From Terrabacter sp. Root181 (GTDB lineage Bacteria > Actinomycetota > Actinomycetes > Actinomycetales > Dermatophilaceae): a stretch of 64,000 bases of DNA. Position numbers and translations under genes: made by a program. The stretch covers positions 310,133 through 374,132 of the forward strand of contig NZ_LMHU01000007.1 in NCBI RefSeq assembly GCF_001428505.1, written 5' to 3'. Positions 2,494 to 64,000 of this stretch are shown here, in pieces (position 1 is the stretch's first letter; the number at the start of each line of letters is the position of its first letter). The notes under the pieces are model-generated. The model was not told the DNA's origin and searched no databases. It worked only from the letters and a program-made list of their open reading frames with translations.

Positions 2494-2528
2494 GTATGCC
2501 GTCCCTCCCTCCGGGTGCGACGGCATAC
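2494..2528. terminator. bidirectional hairpin with inverted GTATGCCG pair
   Basis: Perfect 10-bp arms GTATGCCGTC (2494-2503) and GACGGCATAC (2519-2528) with a 15-nt loop lie between two convergent genes. No U-tract follows, as is common for actinobacterial terminators. Both arms are copies of the dispersed 8-mer described in the findings. Confidence 0.65.
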
Positions 2529-2603
2529 CTCGTCCGTGGCCGGCCACGGCGTACGGCCGGTGGCGTCCTGACCCGGCGGCCGCAGCCGCCGCCGGCCTCG
2601 CCC

Positions 2604-3113
2604 TCAGCGTCGCTCGGGCCAGGGCCAGTCGACGTCGAGCGACTCGCCGACCGCGAGCCGTGACCACGCTGCCGAGAGGCGGTCGAGGTCGGCGAACGCC
2701 TCGGCGAGCTCGCGGGGTCCGAGGTCGGCGGCGGCTACCTCGGCTCGAGCGTGGTGGAGGTCGGGCGTCATCCCGCGGTGCCGCAGCCACGCCGGGTAGA
2801 CCGCAGCGGCCAGCTGCTCGGACCGCCCGATCTGCGTGCCGCGCGACTGGTTCCGACGTTCGACGCGACGTGCCCACGCCTTCGTGCGCGGTTCCTGGGT
2901 GGGCACGAAAGTGCCTGCGTTGCCGCCGGCTGCGATCTGGCCGAAGATGCCGTCGCGCAGCCCGAAGCGGTGCTCCACGACGAGGTGCACGAGGTCGTGC
3001 GGAGCGAGGGCGCTCCACCCCGGGGCCGGGCTCATGACGAGGTCGGTCGCGAGGTCGCGCGCGATGCGCACCTCGTAGCGACGATCACCGGTCCTCGCGA
3101 AGCTCACCCGCAT
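2604..3113 (-). CDS. hypothetical protein with HDLVHLVVE motif
   Basis: A 169-residue soluble protein of unknown function. An ATG at 3113 lies 7 nt after TAGCCT (3126-3121), so it fits a leaderless mRNA. The middle carries HDLVH followed by VVEHRFGLRDGIFG, a pattern I associate with a widespread uncharacterised actinobacterial family. The two His and the Glu could bind metal, but that is inference. The C-terminus is Trp/Arg-rich (DVDWPWPERR). It is convergent with the membrane-protein gene and upstream of nothing on its strand, so probably monocistronic. Confidence 0.65.
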   Translation of the reverse strand: MRVSFARTGDRRYEVRIARDLATDLVMSPAPGWSALAPHDLVHLVVEHRFGLRDGIFGQIAAGGNAGTFVPTQEPRTKAWARRVERRNQSRGTQIGRSEQLAAAVYPAWLRHRGMTPDLHHARAEVAAADLGPRELAEAFADLDRLSAAWSRLAVGESLDVDWPWPERR

Positions 3114-3196
3114 GCCGACGAGGCTAGGAGCGGCGGCGGCGCGGTGCCACCGCATTTCGGGCGCGGCCCGCCGCGTGACCGTCGACCCGCCGGCCG

Positions 3197-4784: not shown

Positions 4785-5534
4785 GTGCTCATCCTGCTCC
4801 CCCCGTCCGAGGGCAAGACCCCACCCCGGCGGGGGCGGTCGCTGGACCTCGGCACCCTCTCCTTCCCGGAGCTGACGCCGCTGCGCGAGTCGCTCGTCGG
4901 GACGGTGGCCCGGGTGAGCGGCGAGCCGGAAGCGGCGACCGTCCTGTCGGTCAGCCCCAACCTCGTCGGCGACATCGAGCGCAACACCCGCCTGTTGACG
5001 GCGCCCACGGCGGCCGCGTCCCACGTCTACACCGGCGTGCTCTACCAGGCGCTCGACGTCGACTCCCTCGACGCGGCCGCCAAGCGCCGCGCCAACCGCT
5101 GGGTCGTCGTCGTCTCTGCCCTCTTCGGCGCGTTGCGCCTCGCCGACCGCGTCCCGGCCTACCGCGTCAACATCTGCAGCACCCTTCCCGGCGTCGGCTA
5201 CGTCTCGCACGAGTGGCGCAAGGAGCTGCCGGCGGCGCTCGACGCCGCGGTGAAGCCCGGTGAGCTCGTCGTCGACTGCAGGTCGAGCACGTATGCCGCC
5301 GTGTGGCGTCCCACGGGCGAGCGTGCCGAGCGCTGGGTGCACGTCACGGTCCCCGGCGCCTCGCACATGGCCAAGCACACCCGAGGACTCGTCACGCGCG
5401 AGCTCGTGCAGGCCGAGGCCCCGCGCACGCCGCAGGCCCTGGCCGAGCGGCTCTCGGAGCGCTTCGAGGTCGAGCTGACGCCCCCGCCGCGCGCGGGCCG
5501 GCCGTGGCAGCTGGCCACGACGCCGAGGGCCTGA
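4785..5534 (+). CDS. yaaA: YaaA family peroxide-stress/DNA-binding protein
   Basis: The opening MLILLPPSEGKTPP and the internal ALFGALRLADRVPAYR are characteristic of the YaaA (DUF328) family, which limits iron-dependent oxidative damage in E. coli. 249 residues is the usual length. I chose GTG 4785 because it is 7 nt after TAGGCT (4772-4777) and gives the conserved N-terminus. The gene is divergent from the RNB gene and ends 1 nt before the next start, so the two are likely coupled. Confidence 0.87.
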   Translation: MLILLPPSEGKTPPRRGRSLDLGTLSFPELTPLRESLVGTVARVSGEPEAATVLSVSPNLVGDIERNTRLLTAPTAAASHVYTGVLYQALDVDSLDAAAKRRANRWVVVVSALFGALRLADRVPAYRVNICSTLPGVGYVSHEWRKELPAALDAAVKPGELVVDCRSSTYAAVWRPTGERAERWVHVTVPGASHMAKHTRGLVTRELVQAEAPRTPQALAERLSERFEVELTPPPRAGRPWQLATTPRA

Positions 5535-5535
5535 C

Positions 5536-6656: not shown

Positions 6657-6722
6657 CGGCATACGCCATGACGTCGACCACACACCCTCCAGCCAGGCGC
6701 ACGCCGTAGGCGGTGTGCGGCT
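6657..6722. terminator. possible bidirectional terminator region
   Basis: This is the gap between the convergent permease and metZ genes. It holds one CGGCATAC (6657-6664) and an imperfect hairpin near 6697-6719 in which GCACGCC faces GGCGGTGTGC across GTA. CACACC (6681-6686) and GGTGTG (6712-6717) give an alternative 6-bp stem. No U-tract is present. Confidence 0.4.
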
Positions 6723-8364: not shown

Positions 8365-9363
8365 TCAGGCGAGATGGTCGGTCCGATTGGTGAATGCCAC
8401 CGACGCGGACCCGTTCTCCCAGACCTCGACCGCGGTGAGGCTGCCGGGCGCCGTCGCGACGGCCCAGAAGCGCTCCACGGGCGTGCCGAGCACGTCGGCG
8501 AGGACCGAGAGCACGCCCCGCCTGCTCGTCACCGCGACGACGGTGCCGCCTGACGCCGTGAGCGAGTGGTATGCCGTCCGCACCCTGTCGTCGGCCCCCT
8601 CGCCGGGTGCCTGGCCGGACCAGTCACCCGCCGTGTGCGGCTCGACCTCGAGAGCCGCGGCGAGGTCGGCCGCCATGCGCGTGGCAAGGTCGTCGTCGGC
8701 ACCGACGACGCTCGTGCCGGGCCCGACGAGGCGCCGGACGGCCGTGACGATGCGGGGCACCGCAGCATCGTCGAGCGGCGCCTGGACGAGCAGCAGCCGC
8801 AGGGGGCGGCTGCTCGTCGGGGTGGAGGCGACCTCTGAGTCACCTTGCGCCGGAAGGGAGCTCGACTCTCGATCGGCGTCGGAGCCGTCACCGGTCACGT
8901 TCGTCAGGATCCGGTGGACGCTCTTGCCGTCCATCGCGTCGTTGCTCAGCGCGTCGGCGTCCTTGTTCTTCTCGCGCGGGATCCACTCGAAGTCGACGCT
9001 GCCGCCGGCGTCGGAGATCTCGGCGCACAGGTCGCGGGCCTCGAGCGCGAGCCGGCGCATGTCCTCGTGCTTGATCTTCCAGCGGCCCGACATCTGCTCG
9101 ACGACGAGCTTGGAGTCCATCTTGACGCGCACGGTGGCGCCGGGGTCGAGGTCGAGCACGGCCCGCAGCCCGGCGATCAGACCGGAGTACTCCGCCACGT
9201 TGTTGCTGGCCTTGCCCAGCGGCTCGGCCAGCTCGACGAGGACGCGGCCGTTCGCAGGGTCACGGACGAGGGCGCCGTAACCGGCCACCCCCGGGTTGCC
9301 CCGTGAGCCGCCGTCGGCCTCGACGACGAGCCGGCGTCCCGACCCGCGAGACGCAGCGGTCAC
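8365..9363 (-). CDS. RNase HI fused to a degenerate phosphatase-like domain
   Basis: The N-terminal ~140 residues are RNase HI: VEADGGSRGNPG, NNVAEYSGL, KMDSKLVVEQM and NKDADALSND provide the metal-binding Asp/Glu set. After an acidic linker the C-terminal ~135 residues align in my reading with the histidine-phosphatase (CobC-like) domain of the actinobacterial fusion (Rv2228c type). However, the RHG motif is absent (LRLLLVQAP instead) and the second catalytic His position reads VAVTSRRG. The ending LTAVEVWENGSASVAFTNRTDHL still looks like that family. GTG 9363 overlaps the upstream stop (GTGA). Removal of RNA from hybrids is expected; phosphatase activity is not. Confidence 0.85.
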   Translation of the reverse strand: MTAASRGSGRRLVVEADGGSRGNPGVAGYGALVRDPANGRVLVELAEPLGKASNNVAEYSGLIAGLRAVLDLDPGATVRVKMDSKLVVEQMSGRWKIKHEDMRRLALEARDLCAEISDAGGSVDFEWIPREKNKDADALSNDAMDGKSVHRILTNVTGDGSDADRESSSLPAQGDSEVASTPTSSRPLRLLLVQAPLDDAAVPRIVTAVRRLVGPGTSVVGADDDLATRMAADLAAALEVEPHTAGDWSGQAPGEGADDRVRTAYHSLTASGGTVVAVTSRRGVLSVLADVLGTPVERFWAVATAPGSLTAVEVWENGSASVAFTNRTDHLA

Positions 9364-10988: not shown

Positions 10989-11061
10989 TGGGCCCGGCCG
11001 GGCTCGAACCGACGACACCCGCGGTGTAAACGCGGTGCTCTACCAACTGAGCTACAGGCCC
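10989..11061 (-). tRNA. tRNA-Val (anticodon TAC)
   Basis: A 73-nt cloverleaf: acceptor GGGCCTG/CGGGCCC, D-arm GCTC...GAGC, anticodon stem CCGCG/CGCGG with loop TTTACAC (anticodon TAC), T-arm loop TTCGAGC, discriminator A. CCA is not encoded. It lies 34 nt downstream of ahpE and directly upstream of NIF3 on the same strand. Confidence 0.97.
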
Positions 11062-12161: not shown

Positions 12162-12451
12162 CGGTCCTCTCGATCGGTTGGTGCGTCGTGTCGCGGCGTG
12201 GGTGCCACGACATCAGTGCACTGGCTCCGACGCTATCGCGCAAGCCCGACCCGATGGGCGCAGAACGCGCGCGCCGCGCCCGAGGGAGCACACGGCATAC
12301 CACCGGCTGGGACGGTGGCGGCGTCGAAGCGGGCGGTCCCGGTGCTGGACCCGAGTGTGACGGCCACCACGGTTTGGTAGAGGATGGGTGGGTGCAGCGC
12401 CGTGGCCGACCGGCCGCGGGCGCCGCCTCGCGACGAGAAAGGACCCACGAC
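12162..12451. promoter_or_regulatory. divergent DUF3052 / aceE intergenic region
   Basis: About 290 nt with no gene. It holds one CGGCATAC (12293-12300), a candidate aceE -10 TAGAGG/GAGGAT near 12376-12385, and the aceE Shine-Dalgarno GAGAAAGGA at 12435-12443. I see no clear operator palindrome. Confidence 0.4.
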
Positions 12452-15238: not shown

Positions 15239-15287
15239 GTATGCCGTGTGGCCCGGTCCCTGCCCAGGGGCCGGGCCGCACGCATAC
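15239..15287 (+). terminator. aceE terminator hairpin
   Basis: Arms 15239-15256 and 15271-15287 pair over about 17 bp with one bulge (GTATGCCGTGTGGCCCGG against CCGGGCCGCACGCATAC). The left base is a GTATGCCG copy and the right base ends in GCATAC. It lies 15 nt after the aceE stop and has no U-tract. Confidence 0.8.
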
Positions 15288-15372: not shown

Positions 15373-16835
<1,463 letters not shown>

Positions 16836-17001: not shown

Positions 17002-17718
17002 ATGGACTCGACCAGCCACCTCACCGAGAGCGACCACGTCGCCGGGCAGTACGCCTCCACCGACAACCTCCGCACGCGTCGGAGCGTGTGGGGCCCCGGC
17101 CCGGAGGGCGTGTCTCCCGTGGACGTCCTGCGGACGCTCGTGCTGTCCTCCCGGCCGAGGCGAGTCATCGAGATCGGCTGCGGCACAGGCCAGTTCGCCC
17201 GCTCGATCCTTGACCAGGAGCCGAACATCGACTACGTCGCGACCGACCTCTCGCCGGCGATGGTGGAGGCCGCCCGTGCGCTGGGCGTCACCGCTGAGGT
17301 CGCCTCCTCGGACGTGCTGCCCTTCGGCGACGGCACGTGCGACGGCGCCGTCGCGGCCTGGATGCTCTACCACGTGCCCGACCTCGACGGCACCCTGCGC
17401 GAGCTGCGCCGGGTCCTGCGCGACGGCGGCACGCTCCACGTCGCGACGAACGGCCGCGAGCACCTCTCCGGCCTGCTCCGGGAGGCCGGCGGAGAGCCCC
17501 TCGTCACCCAGTTCATGTCGGAGAACGCCGCCGAGGTGCTCGGCCGGCACTTCGAGCACGTCGCCCAGCGGGACGTCGAGACCCGCGCGACCTTCGCCGA
17601 CCACGCGGCCGCGAGCGCCTACCTCGCGACCTTCTCGCCCGAGCTGGCGCAGTCGCTCCCCCACTTCGAGGGCCCGCGGACGTATGCCGGCCACACCGCC
17701 GTCCTGTCGGCGCACTGA
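17002..17718 (+). CDS. class I SAM-dependent methyltransferase
   Basis: A 238-residue methyltransferase of the UbiE/type-11 kind. Motif I VIEIGCGTGQFA, the acidic VATDLSPAMV, and a later GAVAAWMLYHVPDLDGTLRELRRVLRDGG are clear. The substrate is not evident. ATG 17002 lies 8 nt after TAGGGT (16988-16993). Upstream argG is ended by a hairpin and downstream fasR has its own promoter, so it is probably monocistronic. Confidence 0.85.
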   Translation: MDSTSHLTESDHVAGQYASTDNLRTRRSVWGPGPEGVSPVDVLRTLVLSSRPRRVIEIGCGTGQFARSILDQEPNIDYVATDLSPAMVEAARALGVTAEVASSDVLPFGDGTCDGAVAAWMLYHVPDLDGTLRELRRVLRDGGTLHVATNGREHLSGLLREAGGEPLVTQFMSENAAEVLGRHFEHVAQRDVETRATFADHAAASAYLATFSPELAQSLPHFEGPRTYAGHTAVLSAH

Positions 17719-17767: not shown

Positions 17768-17788
17768 CTTTGTGAGCGGCATACAAAG
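17768..17788. promoter_or_regulatory. candidate operator upstream of fasR
   Basis: CTTTGT (17768-17773) and ACAAAG (17783-17788) form a 21-bp dyad with a 9-nt centre, placed about 20 bp upstream of the fasR -10 box (TAGGCT 17807-17812). Autoregulation is a possibility. One CGGCATAC copy (17777-17784) lies inside it. Confidence 0.4.
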
Positions 17789-20286: not shown

Positions 20287-21342
20287 GTGACATCCCCCAG
20301 CGCCACCGCGCCGACGCCCAAGGGCACCGGCACCCTTGCCGACACCGGCGCCGCGCGCCACTCGCGCATCCTGGGTGTGGGCGCCTACCGCCCGGCCCGC
20401 GTCGTCATGAACTCCGAGATCGTCGACAAGATCGACTCGAGCGACGAGTGGATCCGCGAGCGGTCCGGCATCATCAGCCGCCACTACGCCGCCGACGACG
20501 AGAGCGTCATCGACATGGCGGAGGCGGCCTCCCGCCAGGCGCTCGAGCACGCGGGCATCGCGCCCGAGCAGATCGGCTTCGTCCTCGTCGCCACGGTCAC
20601 GCACCCCTACCAGACTCCAGCCGCGGCCCCGGAGCTCGCGTCGCGGCTCGGCTCGACGGCCCCGGCTCTCGACATCTCCGCCGCGTGCGCCGGCTACTGC
20701 TACGGCGTCGCCATGGCCAGCGACATGGTCAAGGGCGGCTCGGCCGACCACGTCCTCGTCGTCGGCGTCGAGAAGCTCAGCGACTTCACCGACCCCTACG
20801 ACCGCGGCAGCGCGTTCATATTCGGCGACGGTGCCGGTGCCTGCGTCATCGGACCGAGCGACACCCCGGGCATCGGCCCGACGGTGTGGGGCTCGGACGG
20901 CACGCAGCGCGACGCCATCACGCAGAAGCAGGCCTGGACCGACGTCCGCGAGTCCTGGCAGTCCGCCCAGGCCGACAAGAACGTGTGGCCCGCGATCGGC
21001 ATGGCCGGCCAGACGGTCTTCCGCTGGGCCGTCTGGGGCATGGCCCCGGTGGCGCAGCAGGCGATCGACAAGGCCGGCATCAAGGCCGACGACCTCGACG
21101 CCTTCATCCCGCACCAGGCGAACATCCGCATCATCGACGCGATGGTCAAGCAGCTCAAGCTGCCGGGCGACATCCCCGTGGCCCGCGACATCGTGACCAC
21201 CGCCAACACCTCGGCGGCCTCGATCCCGATCGCGACGACGCGGATGCTCGCGGAGAAGGAGATCCCGAGCGGCGGCCTGGCGCTGCAGATCGGCTTCGGG
21301 GCCGGTCTGGTGTATGCCGCGCAGGTCGTCGTGCTGCCCTGA
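20287..21342 (+). CDS. fabH: beta-ketoacyl-ACP synthase III
   Basis: Condenses an acyl-CoA primer with malonyl-ACP. The triad is visible: Cys134 in ISAACAGYCYG, His in FIPHQANIRI and Asn in TTANTSAASIP. GTG 20287 gives 351 residues and has CGAGAAGG 7 nt upstream; the N-terminal ~25 residues are a Thr/Ala-rich extension compared with E. coli FabH. An in-frame ATG exists at 20188 but would add unstructured sequence. The 142-nt gap after fabD holds a GGAGAG/CTCTCC dyad. Confidence 0.94.
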   Translation: MTSPSATAPTPKGTGTLADTGAARHSRILGVGAYRPARVVMNSEIVDKIDSSDEWIRERSGIISRHYAADDESVIDMAEAASRQALEHAGIAPEQIGFVLVATVTHPYQTPAAAPELASRLGSTAPALDISAACAGYCYGVAMASDMVKGGSADHVLVVGVEKLSDFTDPYDRGSAFIFGDGAGACVIGPSDTPGIGPTVWGSDGTQRDAITQKQAWTDVRESWQSAQADKNVWPAIGMAGQTVFRWAVWGMAPVAQQAIDKAGIKADDLDAFIPHQANIRIIDAMVKQLKLPGDIPVARDIVTTANTSAASIPIATTRMLAEKEIPSGGLALQIGFGAGLVYAAQVVVLP

Positions 21343-21861: not shown

Positions 21862-23112
21862 ATGACGTCCAATCGCGACCGACGCGTCGTGGTCACCGGT
21901 CTCGGAGCCACCACGCCCCTGGGCGGTACCGCCACGGAGACGTGGGAGGCCCTGCTCGCCGGCCGGTCCGGCGCCCGCACGATGGACTTCGACTGGGTCG
22001 CCAAGTACGAGCTCCCCGTCACGTTCGCGGCGACGATCGCCACCCCGCCGATCGACGTGCTCGCCAAGGTCGAGACGCGCCGTCTCGACCCCTCGAGCCA
22101 GTACGCCCTCATCGCGGCCCGTGAGGCGTGGGCCGACGCCGGCGCCCCCGAGATCGACCCCGAGCGCCTCGGCGCCGCGATCGGGTCCGGCATCGGCGGC
22201 GTGTGGACCCTGCTCGACCAGTGGGACGTGCTGAAGGAGAAGGGCCCCCGGCGCGTCTACCCGCTGGCGGTCCCGATGCTCATGCCCAACGGGCCCGCCG
22301 CAGCCGTGTCGCTCGACCTCGGCGCCCGCGCCGGGGCCCACACGACGGTCAGCGCGTGCGCGTCCGGCGCAGAGAGCATGGGCTACGCCATCGACATGAT
22401 CCGCACCGGCCGGGCCGACGTCGTCGTCGCCGGCGGCACGGAGGCCGCCGTCCACCCGCTGCCCATCTCGGGGTTCGCCGCGATGCAGGCGCTCTCGACG
22501 CGCAACGACGACCCGGCCCGGGCCTCGCGGCCCTACGACACCGGGCGCGACGGCTTCGTTCTCGGTGAGGGTGCAGCGGTCATCGTCCTCGAGTCAGAGG
22601 AGCACGCCCGCGCCCGGGGTGCCCGCATCTACGCCGAGCTGGCGAGCGTCGGCATGTCGGCCGACGCCCACCACATCACGGCCCCCGAGCCCAACGGCTC
22701 CGGCGCGAGCCGCGCGATGCTGTATGCCGTCGAGCGGGCCGACCTGTCACCGACCGACATCATCCACATCAACGTGCACGCCACCTCGACCCCCGTGGGC
22801 GACGTGGCCGAGTACAACGCAATCAAGCGAGCCTTCGGCGACCACACCGAGAACATGTCGGTGACGGCGACGAAGTCGATGACCGGGCACCTGCTCGGCG
22901 CGGCGGGCGCACTCGAGGCGGTCATCACGATCCAGTCGATCTACCACCGGCTCGTGCCGGCGACGATCAACCTGGACGACCAGGACCCCGAGATCCCGCT
23001 CAACGTCGTCACGGGCGAGCACCAGAAGCTGCCCGACGGCGACATCGCGGCCCTGAACAACTCGTTCGGCTTCGGCGGCCACAACGTCGCCCTGGCGGTC
23101 CGCAGCATCTGA
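21862..23112 (+). CDS. fabF: beta-ketoacyl-ACP synthase II
   Basis: Elongating condensing enzyme, 416 residues. The Cys-His-His triad is visible: Cys166 in TTVSACASGAESM, HATSTPVGD and MTGHLLGAAGALEA. ATG 21862 follows AGAGGAGCACGTCACC. It ends the fab cluster, and a 14-bp hairpin shared with the convergent endonuclease gene follows at 23130. Confidence 0.96.
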   Translation: MTSNRDRRVVVTGLGATTPLGGTATETWEALLAGRSGARTMDFDWVAKYELPVTFAATIATPPIDVLAKVETRRLDPSSQYALIAAREAWADAGAPEIDPERLGAAIGSGIGGVWTLLDQWDVLKEKGPRRVYPLAVPMLMPNGPAAAVSLDLGARAGAHTTVSACASGAESMGYAIDMIRTGRADVVVAGGTEAAVHPLPISGFAAMQALSTRNDDPARASRPYDTGRDGFVLGEGAAVIVLESEEHARARGARIYAELASVGMSADAHHITAPEPNGSGASRAMLYAVERADLSPTDIIHINVHATSTPVGDVAEYNAIKRAFGDHTENMSVTATKSMTGHLLGAAGALEAVITIQSIYHRLVPATINLDDQDPEIPLNVVTGEHQKLPDGDIAALNNSFGFGGHNVALAVRSI

Positions 23113-23971: not shown

Positions 23972-24075
23972 GACCGGACGCTAGACGGCGCCACCGACAC
24001 AGCCCTCCGCCTGGCAGGGGCTCGGCGGGCTGGCGCCGTCCGCACGGGCGGGGCACCCGGCATACGGCCTTGGTG

Positions 24076-28812: not shown

Positions 28813-28861
28813 CGGCGACTCGGCCACCCACTCAGGGCGTATGCCGTGTGCTGCGGACGTC

Positions 28862-34961: not shown

Positions 34962-34985
34962 CGCGAGCCGACGACACGGCATACG

Positions 34986-44101: not shown

Positions 44102-44206
44102 GCGGGCAGTATGCCGCCGATCCCGGACGTCCCGCGCCCGGGACGGGCCGGACCGCGGCGGGCCTCACCGACCGACCCCGCTGCCGGCACGGCACCACGG
44201 GCGCAC

Positions 44207-44240
44207 GTATGCCGCCTGCCCGGGTGGGCGGACGGCATAC
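44207..44240. terminator. glyS terminator with inverted GTATGCCG pair
   Basis: GTATGCCG (44207-44214) and CGGCATAC (44233-44240) are paired at the base, and CCTGCCC faces GTGGGCGG inside. It lies 24 nt downstream of the glyS stop on the minus strand. Confidence 0.7.
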
Positions 44241-44264
44241 GTCAGCGGCGGTGCTGCCTGCGCG

Positions 44265-45659
<1,395 letters not shown>

Positions 45660-45737
45660 GCGGGACAGGTTATCGGGCCGGTGCCACTGCTTTGCCACGC
45701 GTCCGGGGTAGGCCGCCACGTCCCCTAGGCTCGTGAC

Positions 45738-47086: not shown

Positions 47087-47928
47087 GGTCGGCACCGCTG
47101 CTCCCCCTCGAACCCACGCCGACGAACGAGGTCGTGACCCTGCGGGGCGCGAGCTTCGGCTACGGCGACGGCCCTGTCCTCAGCGACGTAGACCTGTCGA
47201 TCCGGAAGGGCGAGATCGTGGCGATCGTCGGGCCCAACGGGTCGGGCAAGTCGACGCTGATGAAGGGCGTGCTCGGCCTCAACGAACGGGTCGCCGGCAC
47301 CGTGACGCTCTTCGGCATCGACAGTGGTGAGTTCCACGACCGGGCCCGCCTCGGCTACGTGCCCCAACGGCACACGCTCTCGGCGTCGGTCCGGGCCACC
47401 GCCGAGGAGATCGTCGCGACGGGGCGGCTCCCCCGCATCGGCTGGCTCGGACGGCTGCGCGCCACCGACCGGCAGATCGTGGCCCGCTCACTCGACGTCG
47501 TCGGCCTCGCCGACCGCGCCGCCACCGAGGTGAGCACGCTCTCGGGCGGCCAGCAGCGACGTGTCCTGATCGCCCGCGCCCTCGCCGGGCAGCCCGAGGT
47601 CCTCATCATGGACGAGCCCACCGCCGGGGTCGACGCCGCGAACCAGCACGTGCTCGCCGACGTGCTCGACCGCCTCGTCGAGCGCGACGTCACGATGGTC
47701 ATCGTCACGCACGAGCTCGGAGCGCTCGAGCGGCTGCTCACCCGCATCGTCGTCATCGACGGCGGCCGCATCCGCTTCGACGGGACCCCCGAGGCGTATG
47801 CCGCCGCGCGCGACCGCGTGCACCACGACCACGACAGCCACCACCACGACCTCGAGCTCGAGGGGAACCACCCCTCGCTGGCCCACGGCCCGCTCGACGT
47901 CAGCCGAACCGACGGGAGCCGACCGTGA
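47083..47928 (+). CDS. znuC: zinc ABC transporter ATP-binding protein
   Basis: A 281-residue ATPase: Walker A GPNGSGKST, signature LSGGQQRRVLIARALA, Walker B VLIMDEPTAGVD, switch IVTHEL. The C-terminus is His-rich (HHDHDSHHHD), unusual for an ATPase and consistent with zinc. It starts in an ATGA overlap with znuA and ends in a GTGA overlap with znuB. Confidence 0.93.
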   Translation: MRSAPLLPLEPTPTNEVVTLRGASFGYGDGPVLSDVDLSIRKGEIVAIVGPNGSGKSTLMKGVLGLNERVAGTVTLFGIDSGEFHDRARLGYVPQRHTLSASVRATAEEIVATGRLPRIGWLGRLRATDRQIVARSLDVVGLADRAATEVSTLSGGQQRRVLIARALAGQPEVLIMDEPTAGVDAANQHVLADVLDRLVERDVTMVIVTHELGALERLLTRIVVIDGGRIRFDGTPEAYAAARDRVHHDHDSHHHDLELEGNHPSLAHGPLDVSRTDGSRP

Positions 47929-49534: not shown

Positions 49535-50314
49535 TCAGGAGGTGGTCGTCGGGGTGTCGACCGCGCCGCCGTAGCGGCGGTCGCGGGCGACGTACTCCTC
49601 GATCGCGGCCCAGAGGTCGCGCCGGTCGTAGTCGGGCCACAGCTGGTTCTGGAAGACCATCTCGGCATAGGCCGACTGCCACAGCAGGAAGTTGCTCGTG
49701 CGCTGCTCGCCGGACGAGCGCACGAAGAGGTCGACGTCGGGCATCGTCGGCTCGTCGAGGTAGCGCTTGATCGTCTTCTCGTCGACCGAGGCGGGACGAA
49801 GCCGACCGTCCTTGACGTCGTAGGCGATCCGCTGCACGGCGTCGGCGATCTCGGCGCGGCCGCCGTAGTTGACGCAGAAGTAGAGGGTGAGCCCGGTGTT
49901 GTGCTGCGTCAGGTCCTGGGCGACCTCGAGCTCCTTGATGACCGAGCGCCACAGGCGCGGCGCGCGGCCGACCCAGCGCATCCGCACACCCCACTCGTGG
50001 AGCTGGTCGCGCCGCCGGCGGATGACGTCGCGGTTGAAGCCCATGAGGAAGCGGACCTCGTCGGGCGACCGCCGCCAGTTCTCCGTCGAGAAGGCGTATG
50101 CCGACAGGTGGGTCACGCCGATGTCGATGGCTCCCGCGACGACGTCGAGCAGCGACGCCTCCCCCGCCTCGTGGCCCTTGGTCCGCGGCAGGCCTCGCGC
50201 GTTGGCCCAGCGGCCGTTTCCGTCCATGACGATCGCGACGTGCTTGGGCAGCAGGTCGGCCGGGACGGCGGGCGCCGTCGCGCCGGACGGGTGCGGGAAG
50301 GGCTTGGCGTACAT
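49535..50314 (-). CDS. uppS: isoprenyl diphosphate synthase (cis-prenyltransferase)
   Basis: Makes polyprenyl diphosphate for cell-wall lipid carriers. 259 residues; [13 protein letters not shown] with the catalytic Asp31, [12 protein letters not shown], and the C-terminal [27 protein letters not shown] are all family motifs. The chain length (undecaprenyl versus decaprenyl) is not readable. It lies 57 nt after recO on the same strand, a conserved pair in Actinobacteria. Confidence 0.95.
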
Positions 50315-50371: not shown

Positions 50372-51100
50372 TCAGGCCCGTTCGACGAGGCGCAGCGACC
50401 GCAGCCCTCGCTCGATGTGCCACTGGAGGAAGGCGGAGACGAGGCCGTTGCCCTGCCTGCGGCACCGCTCGTCGCTCGCGTCGGCGACATCCCAGTCACC
50501 GGTCAGCAGGGACGCGAGCAGCTCGAAGGTCTCGGGAGCGGGGGCGCTCGAGCCGGGCGGACGGCATACGGAGCACACGGCCCCTCCGGCCTGCACGTTG
50601 AACGCCCGGTGCGGCCCCGGTGCGCCGCACTTCGCGCAGTCGACGAAGCTCGGTGCCCAGCCGGCGACGGCCAACGAGCGGAGCAGGTAGGCGTCGAGGA
50701 CGAGACCGGGGTCGTGGGCGCGCTCGGCGAGCGAGCGCAGCGCGCCGGCGAGCAGGAGGTACTGCTGGGTCTGCGGCTCGTGCTCCTCGGTCAGCTGGAG
50801 CGCCGTCTCGAGCATCGACGTGGCGCAGGTGTAGGCGACGTAGTCGCGGGCGATCGCGTCGCCGTAGGGAGCGAGCGTCTCGACCTGGGTGACAGTGTCG
50901 AGGTTGCGGCCCTCGTAGCACTGGACGTCGACGACCATGCCGGGCTCGAGGCGCGAGCCGAAGCGGGACTTCGTGCGGCGCACCCCCTTGGCGACGGCGC
51001 GGACGCGGCCCCGGGTGCGGGTCAGCATCGTGATGATGCGGTCGGCCTCGCCCAGCTTGTGGGTGCGCAGGACGATCGCCTCGTCACGGTAGAGGGGCAT
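50372..51100 (-). CDS. recO: DNA repair protein
   Basis: A 242-residue RecO with an OB-fold N-terminus ([25 protein letters not shown] ... [16 protein letters not shown]) and a zinc C-x2-C ... C-x2-C element ([16 protein letters not shown]). It helps load RecA on SSB-coated DNA. ATG 51100. The SOS box of the divergent alkB gene is 84 nt away. recO-uppS is likely one unit. Confidence 0.92.
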
Positions 51101-51871: not shown

Positions 51872-51884
51872 CAGGAGAACCCGT

Positions 51885-52700
51885 ATGCCGTCCAGCCGCT
51901 CAGGTGGCCCCCTTCCCTTCCTCGACCACCTCGCGGCCGACTCGGCCCGCTTCCGGGCGGCGCTGACGACGGCACCCGCGGACGTACGCGTGCCGTCGTG
52001 TCCCGACTGGGACGCCGACGACCTGTTGTGGCACCTCGGCGAGGTGCAGTGGTTCTGGGGCGAGATCGCCGAGCGCGGCCTCACCGACCCGGCCGACCTC
52101 GACGCGATGAACGCGTCACGAGAGGAGCGGCCGAGCGACCGCGCCGGACTGCTTGCCTTCTTCGACCGCTCGAGCGAGCGGCTGCACCGCGTGCTCCGCG
52201 AGCTGCCCCCCGAGACACCGCTGTGGATGTGGGCCGACGACAAGACGGCCGGCTACATCCGCCGCCGGCAGGCCCACGAGGCGCTGGTCCACCGCCTCGA
52301 CGCCGAGCTCACCGTGGGCGATCGCTCGCCGCTCGACTGCCGGCTCGCCGCCGACGGCATCGACGAGGCCCTGCGGATCATGCGCGGTCACGAGCCCGAG
52401 CCCGGCCTGACCCACGTGCCCGTCTCGGCGCCGGTGACGATCGCGACCGTCGACGCCATGCACACGTGGACCGTGACGCCGGTCCGCATCACCGGCACCT
52501 GGAACGGCGACGAGATCGACGTCCAGCGCTTCCTCGTCGCCGACGGCCCCGACGACTCCGCGACCGCCGAGATCTGCGGCTCGGCAGCCGACCTCGACTG
52601 CTGGCTGTGGAACCGCCCGCCCGAGGGCGAGATCACCCGCGAGGGTGACGCCGCCGCCCTGGCCGCGGTCGACGCCGTGCTCGACGACTCCATCGACTGA
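51885..52700 (+). CDS. maleylpyruvate isomerase-like, probably mycothiol-dependent protein
   Basis: A 271-residue DinB-fold protein: [22 protein letters not shown] and [19 protein letters not shown] give the metal His residues. It is a paralogue of the 28909 gene. ATG 51885 has AGGAG about 6 nt upstream and starts inside a GTATGCCG copy. It sits behind SOS-controlled alkB, so it may be damage-induced; the substrate is unknown. Confidence 0.82.
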
Positions 52701-52809
52701 CCTCGGCCGGCCACCCCGAGCGGCGCCCGCCGACCACGGCGCGACCGCGCCCTCCCGCCTGCCCGCCACACGGCATACGGTCGTGTCATCCCCTCCCGAA
52801 GGAGTCCCC

Positions 52810-54345: not shown

Positions 54346-55875
54346 TCACCGCCTCACCGAGAGCGACGCCTGACGCGTGGGGAGCGAGCCGTGGACCATG
54401 GCCGCCAGCACCACGACGAGGGGGACGAACGCGAAGAGGTAGCGCGATCGCCCCTGGAGCACCAACGTGAACGCTGCGATGCCGAGCACGGTCGCCGCGA
54501 CGAGCAGGGTCTCGCGGCGGTACGGGGCGCGCAACAGACCGATCCCGGCCACGAGCAGCACGGCGAGCCACAACGCCTGGGTGAGGTCGGCCCGCGTCTG
54601 GTAGCCCGCCCCCTGGAACCCGTTGAGGTCGTGGACGATCCCGGTGACACCCGTCGCCGGCGCGAGCGTGCCGGGCAACGAGTCCGGCCCCTCGCCCCAG
54701 GCCCAGAACATGCCGTCGCCCCAGTTCCAGGCGGCCTTGCCCGCGTAGAAGGCGAGGGTGCCTCCGAGGCCGCGCTCGGCCCACCGGTCCGCGAGGACGC
54801 CCGCGGCATACGCCTTCATCTCGTCCTGGCTCCGGCCGGTCACGGCATCGACCATCTCGCGGGAGTACGCGCCGTAGTTGACCACTCCGTCCGCCGCGCG
54901 CTGGTCGTCGGCCCCCAAAGCGACCCACCAGGTGATCGGCGGCGAGACCGACATGTCGATGCGCGAGGAGTCCACCCCGGAGGCAGCGGTCGCCGCCGAC
55001 GTCAGGCCCACACCCAGGGCGACGAAGGCGAGGGCGGAGGCCGCGCAGGCCGCGATGACTCCGGCCCGACGGGCGGGGAGGAGGTCGTGGTCGAAGATCG
55101 CGACGACCGCCGTCAGCACGGCCGCGATGGCGATGACGACCGGCGTGGTCTTGATGGAGTACGCGACCGAGACCGACACGATCGCGAGCAGCCACAGCAC
55201 CACTCGTCCCGTACGAGCGCGCGGTGTCATCGCCCTGACCGCGAGCGCCACTCCCCCGACGACGAACGGCATCGCGTAGAAGTCGGTGTAGGGCACGGAC
55301 AGCCACGGGCTCGTCCCGACGAGGACGAGGGTCGCGAGCTGCGCCACGAGGGAGGGCCCACGGCCCGCCACTCGCCGGACGAGGAGGTGGACGGCATACA
55401 GCGTCACGCCGACGCAGATCCCGTTGAGCGGGATCAGGACGGCGTCGGGCGCGAGCGAGAACGCTTGTCCGACAGCGACGCCCATGCGGTCGATGGCGAG
55501 CAGCGGCAAGTTGTTGGGATAGAGCGAGAGGTAGTCGTACTCCGCCGGGCTGAGCGGACGGCCGGCCTGCAGGCCCCGTGCCATGTCCATGATGACACGC
55601 GCGTCCCACCCGTAGCGGTAGCGCGTCATGAGGCCGACCATCGTGGCGACCACGCCCCCACCGACTGCCACGACGACGGGCACCCAGCGCCGCTTGGCCC
55701 ACCCGGGCACGCGGACGACCACGGCCAGCAGCAGGAACCCGAGGGTCGCGGGCACGACCACCAGCCAACGGTGCTCGACGTTGACGGGCCTGGGTGCCAC
55801 GAGGCCGACGACCGCCACTGCGACGAGCGAGACCCCGGCCAGCCGAAGCAGCGCTCGACCGACCGGGGACTCCAT
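54346..55875 (-). CDS. integral membrane glycosyltransferase-like protein (GT-C type)
   Basis: A 509-residue protein with about ten to twelve membrane helices. A large loop with TRYRYGWDARVIMDMARGLQAGRPLSPAEYDYLSLYPNNLPLL carries Asp and Tyr residues as expected for lipid-sugar-dependent mannosyl- or arabinosyltransferases. A late segment with RSQDEMKAYAAGVLADRW and LQGRSRYLFAFVPLVVVL also fits. ATG 55875 lies 8 nt after TAGCGT. Exact donor and acceptor unknown. Confidence 0.72.
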   Translation of the reverse strand: MESPVGRALLRLAGVSLVAVAVVGLVAPRPVNVEHRWLVVVPATLGFLLLAVVVRVPGWAKRRWVPVVVAVGGGVVATMVGLMTRYRYGWDARVIMDMARGLQAGRPLSPAEYDYLSLYPNNLPLLAIDRMGVAVGQAFSLAPDAVLIPLNGICVGVTLYAVHLLVRRVAGRGPSLVAQLATLVLVGTSPWLSVPYTDFYAMPFVVGGVALAVRAMTPRARTGRVVLWLLAIVSVSVAYSIKTTPVVIAIAAVLTAVVAIFDHDLLPARRAGVIAACAASALAFVALGVGLTSAATAASGVDSSRIDMSVSPPITWWVALGADDQRAADGVVNYGAYSREMVDAVTGRSQDEMKAYAAGVLADRWAERGLGGTLAFYAGKAAWNWGDGMFWAWGEGPDSLPGTLAPATGVTGIVHDLNGFQGAGYQTRADLTQALWLAVLLVAGIGLLRAPYRRETLLVAATVLGIAAFTLVLQGRSRYLFAFVPLVVVLAAMVHGSLPTRQASLSVRR

Positions 55876-57792: not shown

Positions 57793-57875
57793 CGCTCGCA
57801 CCCGTTCACCGTATGCCGGTCGCTCCGTGCGCGTCCACCCCTCGGGACCGCTGCCCGCATCGTGAGACCTCGAAA

Positions 57876-59578: not shown

Positions 59579-60872
59579 GGGCGTCCTCCGTCTCGGTGTG
59601 CGCGGCGTCGTCCTCCGGCACCGATGCCCGGTGCACGATGACCGACGCGACGCGGTGGCGGCGTCCGGCCATGCGTTCGGCCGTCAGCTCCAGCCCAGCG
59701 ACCGTACCGGACGACCCGACGATCGGGACGCGTCCGATGACCTTGGTGAGGAGTCCACCGACGGTGTCGACGTCCTCCTCGTCGATCGTGACGTCGAAGA
59801 GCTCGGCGAGGTCGTCGATGTCCATGGACGCCGGGACACGCAGCGTGCCGTCCTCCAGCTGCTCGACGCCGGGAGCCTCGCGGTCGTGCTCGTCGGCGAT
59901 CTCGCCGACGATCTCCTCGATGATGTCCTCGATCGTGATGAGACCTGCGGTGCCGCCGTACTCGTCGACGACGATCGCGAAGTGGTTCTGGTCGCGCTGC
60001 ATCTCGCGCAGGAGGTCGTCGACGGGCTTGCTCTCGGGCACGAAGTGCATGGGCCGCATCACCTCGGTGGCCGGGTGACGACCGTCCTCGGGCGCGGCGT
60101 TGAGCCGGCGCGCGACGTCCTTGAAGTAGAGCAGGCCCCGCACGTCGTCGCTGTCCTCGCCGACGACGGGGATCCGCGAGAAGCCGGACCGCAGGAAGAG
60201 CGACATCGCGCTGCGCAGCGTCTTGTCGGCGTCGAGGACGACCATGTCGGTGCGCGGCACCATGACCGCGCGGGCGAGGGTGTCGCCGAGTTCGAAGACC
60301 GAGTGGATCATCTCGCGCTCGTCGGCCTCGATGACGTCGGAGTCACCGGCCATGTCGACGAGGTCGCGCAGCTCGGACTCGGTCTGGAAGGGCCCGTCGG
60401 TGTAGCCCTTGCCGGGCGTGACCGCGTTGCCGAGGACGACGAGCAGCTTGGCGACCGGGCCGAGGACCCGACGCAGCCCGACGGCGAAGGGCGCGCTCCA
60501 CAGCGCGACGGTGTCGTAGTTCTGCCGACCGAGCGTCCGCGGCGAGACGCCGACGACGACGAACGACACGACCGCCATGATCGCGATGCTGATGAGGGCG
60601 CGGCTCCACGTCGACTCGACCTGGCCGGCGACAGCCAGCGTGACGAGGACCGCTGCGGTGGCCTCGGCGACGACGCGCAGGAACGCGATGACCGAGAGGT
60701 ATGCCGGTGAGTCGCCGACCACGGTCATGAGCGACTTCGCGCCCGACCGTCCTTCGTCGAACAGCTCCTGGGCGCGCACGCGTGACATGCGGAAGATGGC
60801 GGCCTCGGCGGCCGACAGCACGAACGCCACGACGATGCTGATGAGGGCCGGGAGGGCGAACTGCGGGAGCAT
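59559..60872 (-). CDS. CNNM/CorC-type (HlyC) membrane protein with CBS domains
   Basis: A 437-residue protein: N-terminal DUF21/CNNM membrane domain (four helices to ~160), tandem CBS domains (about 200-320; [46 protein letters not shown]), and a C-terminal CorC domain. Such proteins take part in magnesium or cobalt export. The position between ybeY and era is conserved in Actinobacteria. Confidence 0.9.
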
Positions 60873-60891: not shown

Positions 60892-61359
60892 TCAGGCGCT
60901 CGGGCGGTTGCGCGTGGCGAGGAAGGTCAGCAGCAGCTGGCGTTGCAGCTCGAACATCTCGCGTTCCTCGTCCGGCTCGGCGTGGTCGTAGCCGAGCAGG
61001 TGCAGGATGCCGTGCGTCGTGAGCAGCAGCATCTCCTCCATCGGCGCGTGGCCGGCCTCGAGGGCCTGCTTCGTCGCCACGGACGGGCAGAGCACGATGT
61101 CGCCGAGGGTGCCCTCCTCGGGCTCCTGGCCCTCACGCCCGGGTCGCAGCTCGTCCATCGGGAAGCTCATGACGTCGGTGGGCCCGGGCAGGTCCATCCA
61201 CTGCACGTGGAGGACCTCCATCGCGTCCTCGTCGACGAGCTTGATGCAGAGGTCGGCCTGCGCGTGCACGCGCATCTGACCCATGACGTAGGCCGCGCAC
61301 GCCAGCAGCTCGAGCTCGTCGACGTCGTGGTCGGTCTCGTTGAGGACGTCGATGCTCAC
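60892..61359 (-). CDS. ybeY: endoribonuclease YbeY (rRNA maturation)
   Basis: A 155-residue metalloprotein with [11 protein letters not shown] (H116, H120, H126) coordinating zinc, and [10 protein letters not shown] upstream. It acts in 16S rRNA 3' end processing and ribosome quality control. Its ATG overlaps the phoH stop (ATGA at 61359-61356), so the two are coupled. Confidence 0.96.
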
Positions 61360-62627
61360 GCGCCGGCCTCCGTGACGTCACGGCGTCCGCCGTCGTCGTC
61401 GCGGCGCTCGTCGCGGTGGTCGCCTCCGCGGTCTCCTCCACGGTCTCCACCGCGGTCTCCACCACGGTCTCCTCCTCGGTCGACGGCCCGGTCCGGACCC
61501 CGCCGCGACCCGCGGTGGTCGCCGTGGTCGCGGTGGTCGCGGTGGTCGGCACGCGCCCCGCTCGTGCGGGCGCGTCGCTCGGCGCGCACCTCGTCGCGCT
61601 CGTAGGCGTCCACGATGGCGCTGACCAGGCGGTGGCGCACGACGTCGTGCGACGTGAGCTCGGCGAAGTGGACGTCCTCGACACCCTCGAGGATGTCGCG
61701 GACGACGCGCAGCCCGGAGCGGGTGCCACCGGGGAGGTCGACCTGGGTGATGTCACCCGTGACGACCATCTTCGAGCCGAAGCCGAGACGCGTCAGGAAC
61801 ATCTTCATCTGCTCGCTCGAGGTGTTCTGGGCCTCGTCGAGGATGATGAACGCGTCGTTGAGCGTGCGGCCACGCATGTAGGCGAGCGGGGCGACCTCGA
61901 TCGTGCCGGACGCCATGAGCCGCGGGATCGTCTCGGGCGAGACCATGTCGTGGAGGGCGTCGTAGAGCGGGCGCAGGTAGGGGTCGATCTTGTCGTTGAG
62001 CGTGCCGGGCAGGAAGCCGAGACGCTCGCCGGCCTCGACCGCGGGGCGGGTCAGGATGATGCGGTTGACCTGCTTGGCCTGCAGCGCCGCGACGGCCTTG
62101 GCCATCGCGAGGTAGGTCTTGCCGGTGCCGGCCGGACCGATCCCGAAGACCACCGTGTGCTCGTCGATCGCGTCGACGTAGCGCTTCTGGTTCAGCGTCT
62201 TCGGCCGGATCGTGCGGCCGCGGCTGCTGACGATGTTCATCGTCAGCACGTCGGCCGGGCGCTCGGAGGTCTGCCCGCGCAGCATCGAGATCGAGCGCTC
62301 GACCGCGTCACGGTTGAGCGGCTGACCGGTGGAGACGATGGTCAGCAGCTCGTCGAGGAGCGTGTCGATGATGTCGAGCTCACCCGCCGGGCCGGAGAAG
62401 GTCATCTCGTTGCCGCGCACGTGCGTGTCGACGAGGGGGAACTGGCGCTCCATGGTGCGCAGCAGCTCGTCCCGGGGTCCGAGAAGCGTCACCATCTCGA
62501 TCGGCGGCGGGATCTGCCGGGTCAGCACCGGCGTGTCACCGCCGCTCCCGGCGCCCGTGGGGAGCTGGGTGCCGTCAGGGCCGTCGGTCTGGGAAGGTCG
62601 AGGTTGCGCGTCATTCATCGTGGTCAC
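61356..62627 (-). CDS. phoH: PhoH-like ATPase
   Basis: A 423-residue ATPase: Walker A GPAGTGKT (164-171), [21 protein letters not shown] (Walker B), [12 protein letters not shown]. It probably works with YbeY on RNA. The last ~65 residues are an unusual Asp/Arg/Gly/His-rich tail with DRGG repeats (see the tandem-repeat feature). Start GTG 62627 is possible, or ATG 62618 giving MNDAQPRPS. Confidence 0.93.
61423..61482 (-). repeat. five 12-bp tandem repeats in phoH tail
   Basis: Units at 61423, 61435, 61447, 61459 and 61471 (type CCTCCGCGGTCT) encode repeated DRGG on the minus strand. A related 9-bp tract at 61515-61550 encodes DHRDHG-type repeats. The tail is coding and in frame. Confidence 0.8.
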
Positions 62628-62631
62628 GAGT

Positions 62632-64000
62632 CTACGTGTCGCGGCCCGAGCTCCTCACCACGAATTCCGCCAGGTCCTTGCTCTGCTGGAGGCGCGACGG
62701 CTCGTGCACGTACATCATGTGCCCGGCCTCGTAGTAGGCGTGCTCGATGTTCGCGAGCAGGTCCGCCGGCAGCTGCAGGTGGGCCACGACGTCCTCGGCG
62801 GCGAAGTGCGGGGTCGCACCGTCGTAGTAGCCGTAGGCGATGTGGACCCTGAGGTGCGGGTTCTGGCGCATCGCCCTCTCGAGCTTCGGCGAGACGTCGA
62901 CGGGCCGTCCCTCGAAGTCCTTGAACGACCAGGGGTGGACGAGACGCGAGATCTGCTCGTAGTGCAGGTCGCTGCCGTAGCCGAGCTCGTCGCGGACGTA
63001 GTGGTTCCAGGCCGCGGCGTAGGGACCGGTGATGGCGTCGTGCGACGGGTCGGCATCCATGTTCTCGGCGATGGCCGCCGCGGCAGGCCCGGTGAAACGC
63101 GCGTCGAGACGGCCCACCGAGAGGCGCTCGTCGCGCAGCAGCTCGGTGAAGTAGCGCCAGTGCTCGATGCGCAGGTCGGCGCGGTCGATGTAGTCCTCGG
63201 TCAGGCCGGAGAGCCGGGCCAGCGTCGACACCGCCTCCGCCCGCTCTCCCTTCGTGAGCCGGTGGCCGCGGGAGAGTACCCACGGGTAGTCGCGGACGGC
63301 ATACGCCTCGGCCTCGTCGAGGACGGACCGCAGCGAGCGGCGACCGTGCTTGCCGTGGAAGTGGGCCACGGCGGCATACGTCGGCAGGTAGAGCGCGTGC
63401 GCGCGGTCGTTGCGCTGGTTCTCGAAGTCGACCGAGCTGAGGTCGAGGACGCTGCTGATGAGGACGAGCCCGTTGAGGTACATCCCGTAGCGGGACTGGA
63501 GGTGCTCGGCCAGGGCGGCCCCCCGCAGCGTCCCGTACGACTCGCCGGCGACGAACTTCGGTGACATCCAGCGACCGTTGCGCGAGGTCCAGAGCCGGAT
63601 CAGCTCGCCGACGGACTCGATGTCCTTCTGGTAGCCGTGGTAGTCCCCCGGCTTGCCACCCTCGACGGCCCGCGAGTAGCCGGTCGACATGGGGTCGATG
63701 AAGACGAGGTCGCTGACCGCGAGCAGCGACTCGGGGTTGTCGACGAGGTCGTACGGGGGCGGCTGGAGGGCGCCCACGTCGCCGCTCAGGACGCGGCGTG
63801 GCCCGAGCAGGCCGAGGTGCAGCCAGACGCTCGAGCTGCCCGGCCCCCCGTTGAAGGCGAAGGTGACGGGTCGGGTCCGGGCGTCGGCGTCGTCGAGGAC
63901 GTAGCTCGTCATCGACAGCTCCGCCCGAGCCTTGTGCCCGCCGAACGTGCCGTCCTTGTGCTCCTCCTCGCGGAGCACGACCCGTCCGGTCGTCGCGGTG
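62632..64000 (-). CDS. S10 family serine carboxypeptidase-like protein (partial, N-terminus outside window)
   Basis: About 456 codons are visible and the frame is open at the window end. FAFNGGPGSSSVWLHLG is the S10 oxyanion motif, FVAGESYGTLRG carries the catalytic Ser, and IEHAYYEAGHMMYVHEPS the His. It is a bacterial member of the secreted-type family; whether it has a signal peptide is not visible. The stop is 4 nt upstream of the phoH start, so transcription may continue into phoH. Confidence 0.87.
   Translation of the reverse strand, partial: TATTGRVVLREEEHKDGTFGGHKARAELSMTSYVLDDADARTRPVTFAFNGGPGSSSVWLHLGLLGPRRVLSGDVGALQPPPYDLVDNPESLLAVSDLVFIDPMSTGYSRAVEGGKPGDYHGYQKDIESVGELIRLWTSRNGRWMSPKFVAGESYGTLRGAALAEHLQSRYGMYLNGLVLISSVLDLSSVDFENQRNDRAHALYLPTYAAVAHFHGKHGRRSLRSVLDEAEAYAVRDYPWVLSRGHRLTKGERAEAVSTLARLSGLTEDYIDRADLRIEHWRYFTELLRDERLSVGRLDARFTGPAAAAIAENMDADPSHDAITGPYAAAWNHYVRDELGYGSDLHYEQISRLVHPWSFKDFEGRPVDVSPKLERAMRQNPHLRVHIAYGYYDGATPHFAAEDVVAHLQLPADLLANIEHAYYEAGHMMYVHEPSRLQQSKDLAEFVVRSSGRDT

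Follow-up and report, generated by a model that had tools for sequence, protein, structure and literature searches.

Results

An abundant eight-letter word in the window and in its own genome

The stretch of DNA analysed here, called the window throughout, comprises 64,000 nt of Terrabacter sp. Root181 (GCF_001428505.1, contig NZ_LMHU01000007.1, positions 310,133-374,132), and the feature under study is an eight-letter word, GTATGCCG, dispersed over it. Between positions 2494 and 63379 the word occurs 36 times, 20 times on the plus and 16 times on the minus strand; 14 copies lie between genes, one crosses a gene edge and 21 are inside genes (Table 1). A reading of the same DNA from its letters alone (the sequence-only reading) had claimed this count and strand split, an expectation of about 2 copies and about 15 intergenic copies. 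The recount was identical, the intergenic figure was close to the one obtained here, and the over-representation held with about one copy expected: the mean in 100 dinucleotide shuffles of the window was 1.02 (maximum 4) and an order-2 Markov model gave 1.12. Among window 8-mers with at least 8 occurrences GTATGCCG ranked first by z-score (33), the next unrelated word reaching 12.7.

Genome-wide, the word read backwards (the reversed word) served as control. The genome of the strain (G000, 4.94 Mb in 12 contigs) contained 2231 copies of GTATGCCG (1135 plus, 1096 minus) and 250 of the reversed word (124 and 126), so that the genome-wide count proposed by the sequence-only reading came out in favour of its claim. 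A 461-kb sample of this genome, made up of contig C8 (397 kb) and the window, held 223 copies of GTATGCCG and 3 of the shuffled word GTATCCGG, whose equal abundance had been named as evidence against the claim. On contig C8, which is unplaced relative to the origin, the 187 copies were divided 94 to 93 between plus and minus strand, the balance was roughly even across 50-kb bins, and no strand bias along the replichore was found over the 397 kb. The spacing of the copies is more even than random: the coefficient of variation was 0.84 compared with 0.99 for random placement, only 0.75% of 2000 simulations were as low, and 2 of 79 intervals of 5 kb lacked the word where 7.4 were expected.

Position relative to genes and formation of inverted pairs

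Home-made gene calls over the 461 kb placed 59 of the 223 copies between genes, where approx. 13.5% of the bases lie, 5 across gene edges and 159 in reading frames. The coding copies were read as G-TAT-GCC-G (Tyr-Ala) in 98 cases and as CG-GCA-TAC (Ala-Tyr) in 46, which bears out the earlier description of the word as Tyr-Ala or Ala-Tyr for 144 of 159 copies; it had also placed most TAT codons inside the word, and this applied to 98 of 182 in the 461 kb. Intergenic DNA alone (501 kb, own genome) held 62 copies against 1.8 expected, and among its 8-mers GTATGCCG ranked top jointly with its one-base shift TATGCCGT. We concluded that codon usage does not explain the word, because it is in excess where no codons are read.

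Half of the copies in the 461 kb (112 of 223) had the common form GTATGCCGT. A wider consensus at the intergenic copies was weak, with C at -1 (81%), T at +8 (68%) and G, G, C at +11 to +13 (65-69%); the information content was 1.14 bits at +8 and otherwise at most 0.64 over positions -8 to +17. No extended shared sequence of the kind expected for repetitive extragenic palindromes (REP) or miniature inverted-repeat transposable elements (MITE) was found around the intergenic copies of this genome.

Two words 12-59 bases apart were counted as a close pair. In 18 GTATGCCG genomes 15 such pairs were found, of which 11 were inverted (GTATGCCG...CGGCATAC), 2 faced the opposite way and 2 lay on the same strand, with about 3 expected per orientation; uninterrupted arms of at least 10 were present in 8 of the 11 inverted pairs. 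Inverted pairs also made up 6 of 8 close pairs in 27 further named loci. The 461 kb contained only 4 close pairs among its 223 words. Four hairpins were folded, two on contig C8 with z-scores of -8.2 and -6.7 and the two in the window as listed in Table 1. Judged from this predicted folding, inverted GTATGCCG pairs can form terminator-like stem-loops. When all loci were searched for pairs at a single fixed spacing, none matched.

Table 1. Copies of GTATGCCG and associated features; positions are those of the window unless a contig is named.
Feature	Position	Strand	Context
GTATGCCG	2494..2501	+	intergenic; left arm of inverted pair
GTATGCCG	2521..2528	-	intergenic; right arm of inverted pair
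possible hairpin, two inverted words	2490..2535		between convergent genes; word 29 bp past + gene stop; -25.4 kcal/mol, z -5.5
GTATGCCG	5291..5298	+	coding
GTATGCCG	6657..6664	-	intergenic
GTATGCCG	8569..8576	+	coding
GTATGCCG	12293..12300	-	intergenic
GTATGCCG	15239..15246	+	intergenic; 15 bp past gene 12452-15223
GTATGCCG	16676..16683	+	coding
GTATGCCG	17682..17689	+	coding
GTATGCCG	17777..17784	-	intergenic
GTATGCCG	21312..21319	+	coding
GTATGCCG	22722..22729	+	coding
GTATGCCG	24058..24065	-	intergenic by home-made gene calls
GTATGCCG	24555..24562	-	coding
GTATGCCG	28839..28846	+	intergenic
GTATGCCG	30791..30798	+	coding
GTATGCCG	34977..34984	-	intergenic; ends 47 bp from tRNA gene 35031-35103
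GTATGCCG	37863..37870	-	coding
GTATGCCG	40914..40921	+	coding
GTATGCCG	42329..42336	-	coding
GTATGCCG	42897..42904	+	coding
GTATGCCG	42969..42976	+	coding
GTATGCCG	44109..44116	+	intergenic
GTATGCCG	44207..44214	+	intergenic; left arm of inverted pair
GTATGCCG	44233..44240	-	intergenic; right arm of inverted pair
possible hairpin, two inverted words	44200..44250		24 bp past 3' end of - gene 44265-45719; -33.8 kcal/mol, z -4.8
GTATGCCG	47796..47803	+	coding
GTATGCCG	50096..50103	+	coding
GTATGCCG	50562..50569	-	coding
GTATGCCG	51883..51890	+	overlaps gene start
GTATGCCG	52771..52778	-	intergenic
GTATGCCG	54804..54811	-	coding
GTATGCCG	55392..55399	-	coding
GTATGCCG	57811..57818	+	intergenic
GTATGCCG	60699..60706	+	coding
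GTATGCCG	63297..63304	-	coding
GTATGCCG	63372..63379	-	coding
serine-recombinase element in tad-1 cpaF	G000 contig C8:349059-360361 (L068/L069)		outside window

The window also carries three tRNA genes (10989-11061, 26626-26699 and 35031-35103). Other words were in excess in the same DNA: TCTACAA/TTGTAGA with 39 copies (2.0 expected) and CTACAAC with 69 (5.4 expected) in the 461 kb, and GTAGAGCA with 10 copies (0.55 expected) in the window.

Distribution across Dermatophilaceae

Most of the 149 Dermatophilaceae genomes surveyed held GTATGCCG either in abundance or at background level, and which of the two applied depended largely on the genus; in 22 genomes from other families of the order it was at background throughout (maximum 167 copies, in a genome with 184 of the control). 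Within the sets searched the word is confined to Dermatophilaceae. It can be present or absent inside one genus, as in G098, G033 and G124 with 19, 1062 and 3681 copies, or in genus g57, where G151 had 37 copies and four others 1251-1660.

Named genomes were scanned at the best 80 of 544 loci of the pilus gene tadB (see below), in stretches of at most 21 kb each. The word was called in Terrabacter tumescens, T. aerolatus, Humibacillus, Lapillicoccus, Pedococcus bigeumensis, P. cremeus, five Knoellia, Phycicoccus sp. Root101, Soil802, P. elongatus, two Flexivirga, Leekyejoonella, Metallococcus, four Ornithinimicrobium, Arsenicicoccus cauae and Janibacter sp. HTCC2649. In these short stretches it was not called in Terrabacter sp. 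Root85 (3 copies; GTACGCCG, described below, 7), Intrasporangium calvum (3), Pedococcus sp. 5OH_020, Phycicoccus sp. HDW14, P. avicenniae, O. laminariae, Janibacter limosus, J. terrae, J. hoylei, J. corallicola, Austwickia, Kribbia, Marihabitans and Arsenicicoccus piscis, and among the best 80 loci it was called in none titled outside Dermatophilaceae. In a plasmid search (32 records), the five matches listed were distant or housekeeping.

Dialects of the word

An unprejudiced 8-mer scan of 40-kb samples from GTATGCCG-poor genomes uncovered GGATGCCG and GTACGCCG, each equal to GTATGCCG with one letter changed, in other genera of Dermatophilaceae. Both were then counted in 67 genomes, 54 of them from the family. 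GGATGCCG reached 3816 copies in G024, 3838 in G094, 4480 in G131 and 3949 in G034, and GTACGCCG 3903 in G070, 2618 in G078, 2216 in G031 and 1359 in G032, so that the seven clearest genomes held 2216-4480 copies of their dialect. One genome, G074, holds two words (GGATGCCG 2195, GTATGCCG 1217). Apart from intermediate counts (GGATGCCG 1336 in G009; GTACGCCG 1463 in G098, 865 in G150 and 752 in G027), the other family genomes had 260-1027 copies of GGATGCCG and 70-665 of GTACGCCG; the highest values outside the family were 1548 (G055) and 834 (G039), respectively.

Intergenic DNA was sampled for the dialects, leaving out G027, G010 and G022, which gave no usable intergenic set. GGATGCCG was the top intergenic 8-mer in G034 (67 copies, 2.6 expected) and also in G024 and G131, and GTACGCCG was the top one in G070 (19 copies, 2.2 expected); in G031, G032 and G078 its intergenic copies numbered only 1-4. 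G009 and G098 had been considered as a GGATGCCG and a GTACGCCG genome on their raised genome-wide counts and were not relied on, because small samples of their intergenic DNA held no copy of the candidate word. In four GTACGCCG genomes 6 of 7 close pairs were inverted.

GTACGCCG has a naturally high background. Its density had a median of 67 per Mb in 25 GTATGCCG genomes compared with 99 in 15 word-less ones (p 0.003) and fell with GTATGCCG density (Spearman -0.48, p 0.015), as if copies had been converted. Calls of GTACGCCG from 20-kb stretches are unsafe because two such loci outside the family (Actinopolymorpha and a Sporichthyaceae bin) score as well. In a TadB tree with good support for 8 of its 29 inner branches, GGATGCCG stood in two separate places; with G009 and G098 counted, label changes numbered two for GGATGCCG, four for GTACGCCG, nine for GTATGCCG and twelve for the four labels together.

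A possible fourth dialect, GGACGCCG, was not adopted: it stood out in 60 kb of G018 (26 copies, 7.9 expected), its genome-wide count of 1522 was no more than that of several others, and it is probably dicodon background. G036, G039 and G050 from other families hold 3500-3930 copies of it, 4-5.5 times the reversed word, which may be dicodon background or another word. Two further words were noted: CCCCTTCG in the word-less G067 (L049-L050; strongly in excess, with 35 copies in 40 kb where 4.8 were expected and 15 intergenic copies where 0.7 were), and ATCGAAAG in G023 (L071-L072, L133), with 11 intergenic copies in 60 kb against 0.1, perhaps a tandem or regulatory repeat.

Competence genes and a tad-1-like pilus locus

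The sequence-only reading had suggested a search for comEA, comEC and type IV pilus genes. Both competence genes are present in the own genome, where ComEA, with SLBB and helix-hairpin-helix domains, adjoins ComEC, and a pilus locus was found as well, which is of the Tad type rather than type IVa. ComEC was present in all 52 family genomes tested and, being universal, was dismissed as a discriminator of the word. T2SSE ATPases fell into at least three kinds by score; the high-scoring kind A was dismissed as the relevant one, many word genomes being without it.

The pilus locus, to which one of these ATPase kinds belongs, has the order tadA(cpaF)-tadB-tadC-flp-tadE-tadE2-tadG, with gene names given partly by recognition, and lies near prfB, ftsE and ftsX in many genomes. 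This order, together with pilin-like genes carrying G/XXXXEF sites, matches the description of tad-1 of Micrococcus luteus, and we refer to the locus as tad-1-like. Its TadB is 88-93% identical to that of three Terrabacter loci among the best 80 of 544, which places the source of the window within this genus or close beside it. A tad-1 TadB was detected in 130 of 149 family genomes, and in 115 of 129 good ones.

For comparison with the word, 53 genera were classed by hand as word-bearing (37), word-less (13) or unclear (g2, g21 and g50, set aside). A genus counted as word-bearing if a member had at least 2.5 times the control and at least 400 copies, or an assigned dialect; g20 was included on weak GTACGCCG evidence. 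With presence in any sampled member as the measure, tad-1 TadB was found in 37 of 37 word-bearing and 7 of 13 word-less genera; g7, g14, g15, g63, g67 and g71 lacked it in every sampled member.

The second TadE-like pilin of the locus is predicted to consist of a long N-terminal helix and a small beta sheet (mean pLDDT, the predicted local distance difference test score, 90.4), and two of its cysteines are invariant across 34 sequences. We regard this putative minor pilin as a candidate reader of the word and as nothing beyond that.

Elements in the pilus motor gene

In the own genome a 10-kb insert carrying a serine recombinase interrupts the tad-1 cpaF near residue 290 (Table 1). Relatives of this recombinase found by tblastn (27-31% identical) lay beside split cpaF genes in G015, Terrabacter tumescens and Phycicoccus sp. 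HDW14 (where the cpaF pieces overlap by about 35 residues), and beside truncated cpaF genes in Pedococcus sp. 5OH_020, Janibacter hoylei and G065. The genes were broken at approx. residues 204, 230 and 290; the break in G065 fell within the N-terminal quarter. A split cpaF in Knoellia remsis and truncated ones in K. subterranea, G025 and G029 had no recombinase in the available stretch. A shortened tadC, or missing or displaced pilin genes, were seen in Terrabacter sp. Root85, G034, G078, G098 and G028; in G078 (L147) tadC of the tad-1-like locus is followed by a prophage that includes genes for head, portal and terminase. The tad-1 locus of Humibacillus xanthopallidus DSM 21776 is uninterrupted. 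For comparison with cpaF, comEC was matched in one piece in 50 of 52 genomes and in two pieces in G076 and G079. Rough hand counts of cpaF disruption in the family versus the outgroup were not significant (p 0.096) and were not used.

The inserts appear poor in the word in this small sample of four presumed inserts (own genome, G078, G098 and G034), which held 4 words of the own dialect in 31.8 kb where 16 were expected from the flanks or contig (p 4e-4). Without G098 there were 3 against 13 (p 0.001), and the two inserts with recognised element genes (own genome and G078) held 3 against approx. 9.5. Conflict through insertion into competence genes is known, and integrative elements that disrupt a gene of the uptake machinery are reportedly a theme of one study on mobile elements and competence; in the present case the affected gene is that of the Tad ATPase, cpaF/tadA, in which different serine-recombinase elements lie at several positions.

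Discussion

We consider it likely that GTATGCCG serves naturally transformable Dermatophilaceae as a DNA uptake sequence and is read by a Tad competence pilus of the tad-1 type. We also lean towards the broader view that it represents a third, independently evolved system of self-DNA recognition for transformation, the first in actinobacteria, with a family-wide word in at least three dialects, a Tad rather than a type IVa pilus, and a motor gene attacked by integrative elements. Uptake, natural competence in the family and the identity of the reader are what we infer here. The sequence-only reading had called the word a possible DNA-uptake or recombination word; the uptake half is the best supported, by the abundance, strand neutrality, dialects, inverted pairs, ComEA/ComEC and tad-1, and the recombination half found no support because there is no orientation bias.

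According to a 2025 article, Neisseriaceae and Pasteurellaceae are the only families known to have such self-tags (PMC12616744), and the word described here may be the first outside them. In the open-access literature searched, judged by titles and the openings of abstracts, no report of an uptake word in actinobacteria was found, and the papers listed for the letters of the word themselves seemed from their titles to be unrelated. The DNA uptake sequence (DUS) of Neisseriaceae resembles it in its thousands of copies on both strands, its single-letter dialects by clade, its inverted pairs forming terminator-like stem-loops and a conserved inner part, here GNANGCCG (PMC3630211); inverted DUS pairs are tied to terminators in the same article and in section 3.8 of PMC13020248. 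The present word differs in the phylum and envelope of its host, the GC-rich genome, the 8-letter core and the suspected Tad pilus, and uptake has been demonstrated for the DUS whereas our word is known from sequence alone. The literal Neisseria DUS 10-mer ATGCCGTCTG was absent from the 461 kb of the own genome. The inner ATGCCGT of GTATGCCGT also occurs in the Neisseria AT-DUS, and this is probably chance.

The uptake signal sequence of Pasteurellaceae is likewise an abundant word with two dialects, terminator-forming pairs and a minor pilin as predicted receptor, and it differs in that its letters are unrelated, its flanks AT-rich, its machinery a type IV pilus and its hosts gamma-proteobacteria (PMC12616744). 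The closest parallel for the machinery is the Tad/Flp-dependent transformation of the actinobacterium M. luteus, with tadA-tadB-tadC and pilin-like genes of tadE/F types, ComEA and ComEC, in which transformation is lost on deletion of almost any gene of the two tad clusters; the phrase "uptake sequence" does not occur in the main text (PMC4322843). That M. luteus tad-1 and the family locus are orthologous is judged from gene order and description rather than from a sequence comparison.

If GTATGCCG is an uptake sequence, a competence surface protein, most likely a minor pilin of the tad-1-like pilus, would bind it on free DNA and thereby favour DNA of its own kind, and the bound DNA would be drawn in and handed on to ComEA and ComEC. 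The word would build up because fragments bearing it would be taken up and recombined more often, and it would accumulate at tolerant positions such as intergenic DNA, hairpins after genes and the Tyr-Ala and Ala-Tyr spellings. A shift in the preference of the reader would be followed by a genome-wide shift of the word, which could have produced the dialects GTATGCCG, GGATGCCG and GTACGCCG.

Several observations weigh against the uptake interpretation. The motor gene of the strain itself is interrupted. TadB is kept in the word-less genera g3, g9, g10, g11, g58, g59 and g60, and ComEC in all genomes tested, so ComEC and a tad-1-like locus are not sufficient for the word; the well-assembled word-bearing genomes G025, G121 and G077 have no detectable tad-1 TadB, which their congeners do have. 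The association of TadB with the word across genera (Fisher p 1e-4) is uncorrected for relatedness and overstates the independence of the genera, because these are related to each other. In three GGATGCCG genomes inverted pairs were no majority (7 of 14), and GTATGCCG genomes show no deficit of GGATGCCG (2.3 times the control, compared with 2.1 times in word-less ones). Only 0-1 intergenic copies were found in 2-6 kb samples of the GTATGCCG genomes G033, G077, G012 and G150, and none of the candidate dialects in the small samples of G009 and G098.

Even spacing, strand neutrality, thousands of copies and a preference for intergenic DNA would also fit a strand-neutral architectural site that is bound inside the cell by a chromosome-organising or nucleoid protein with a specificity that drifts between genera. 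We judge this unlikely, as such a site predicts neither the link to tad-1 nor the hairpin-capable inverted pairs, nor the switching on and off within a genus seen for G098, G033 and G124 and for G151 among its congeners. Chi and KOPS (FtsK-orienting polar sequences) words are over-represented and differ between lineages, and they are one-directional and strand-biased along the chromosome. GTATGCCG shares the first two of these textbook properties, and a Chi-like or KOPS-like word for a recombination nuclease or DNA translocase is nevertheless very improbable because the word is strand-neutral, at 94:93 on the 397-kb contig and 1135:1096 over all contigs; the sequence-only reading had argued in the same direction from the window.

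An origin as a side effect of codon or dicodon preference (Tyr-Ala, Ala-Tyr) or of mutational bias could account for the spelling of the coding copies and for the high background of GTACGCCG. It would leave unexplained that the word tops the intergenic 8-mers in three dialect genomes, a point that is weaker for GTACGCCG outside G070, and that TAT is otherwise rare in genes, over half of such codons being inside the word; we give this explanation hardly any credence. The terminator-like form of some inverted pairs is what the remnant of a dispersed mobile repeat or of a transcription-terminator family would leave behind. The scarcity of close pairs and the 159 of 223 copies in reading frames speak against such a remnant, and a mobile repeat is disfavoured because the flanks are weakly conserved, so that this origin too has next to no probability in our view.

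Should GTATGCCG indeed be an uptake sequence, a third case in Gram-positive bacteria and with another pilus would mean that such systems evolve repeatedly, and it would offer a test of whether the word in the genome follows the receptor. The on/off and dialect changes between near relatives would make the spread of uptake words directly testable. For the family itself, dozens of genera would be marked as probably transformable, with a ready tag for the introduction of DNA.

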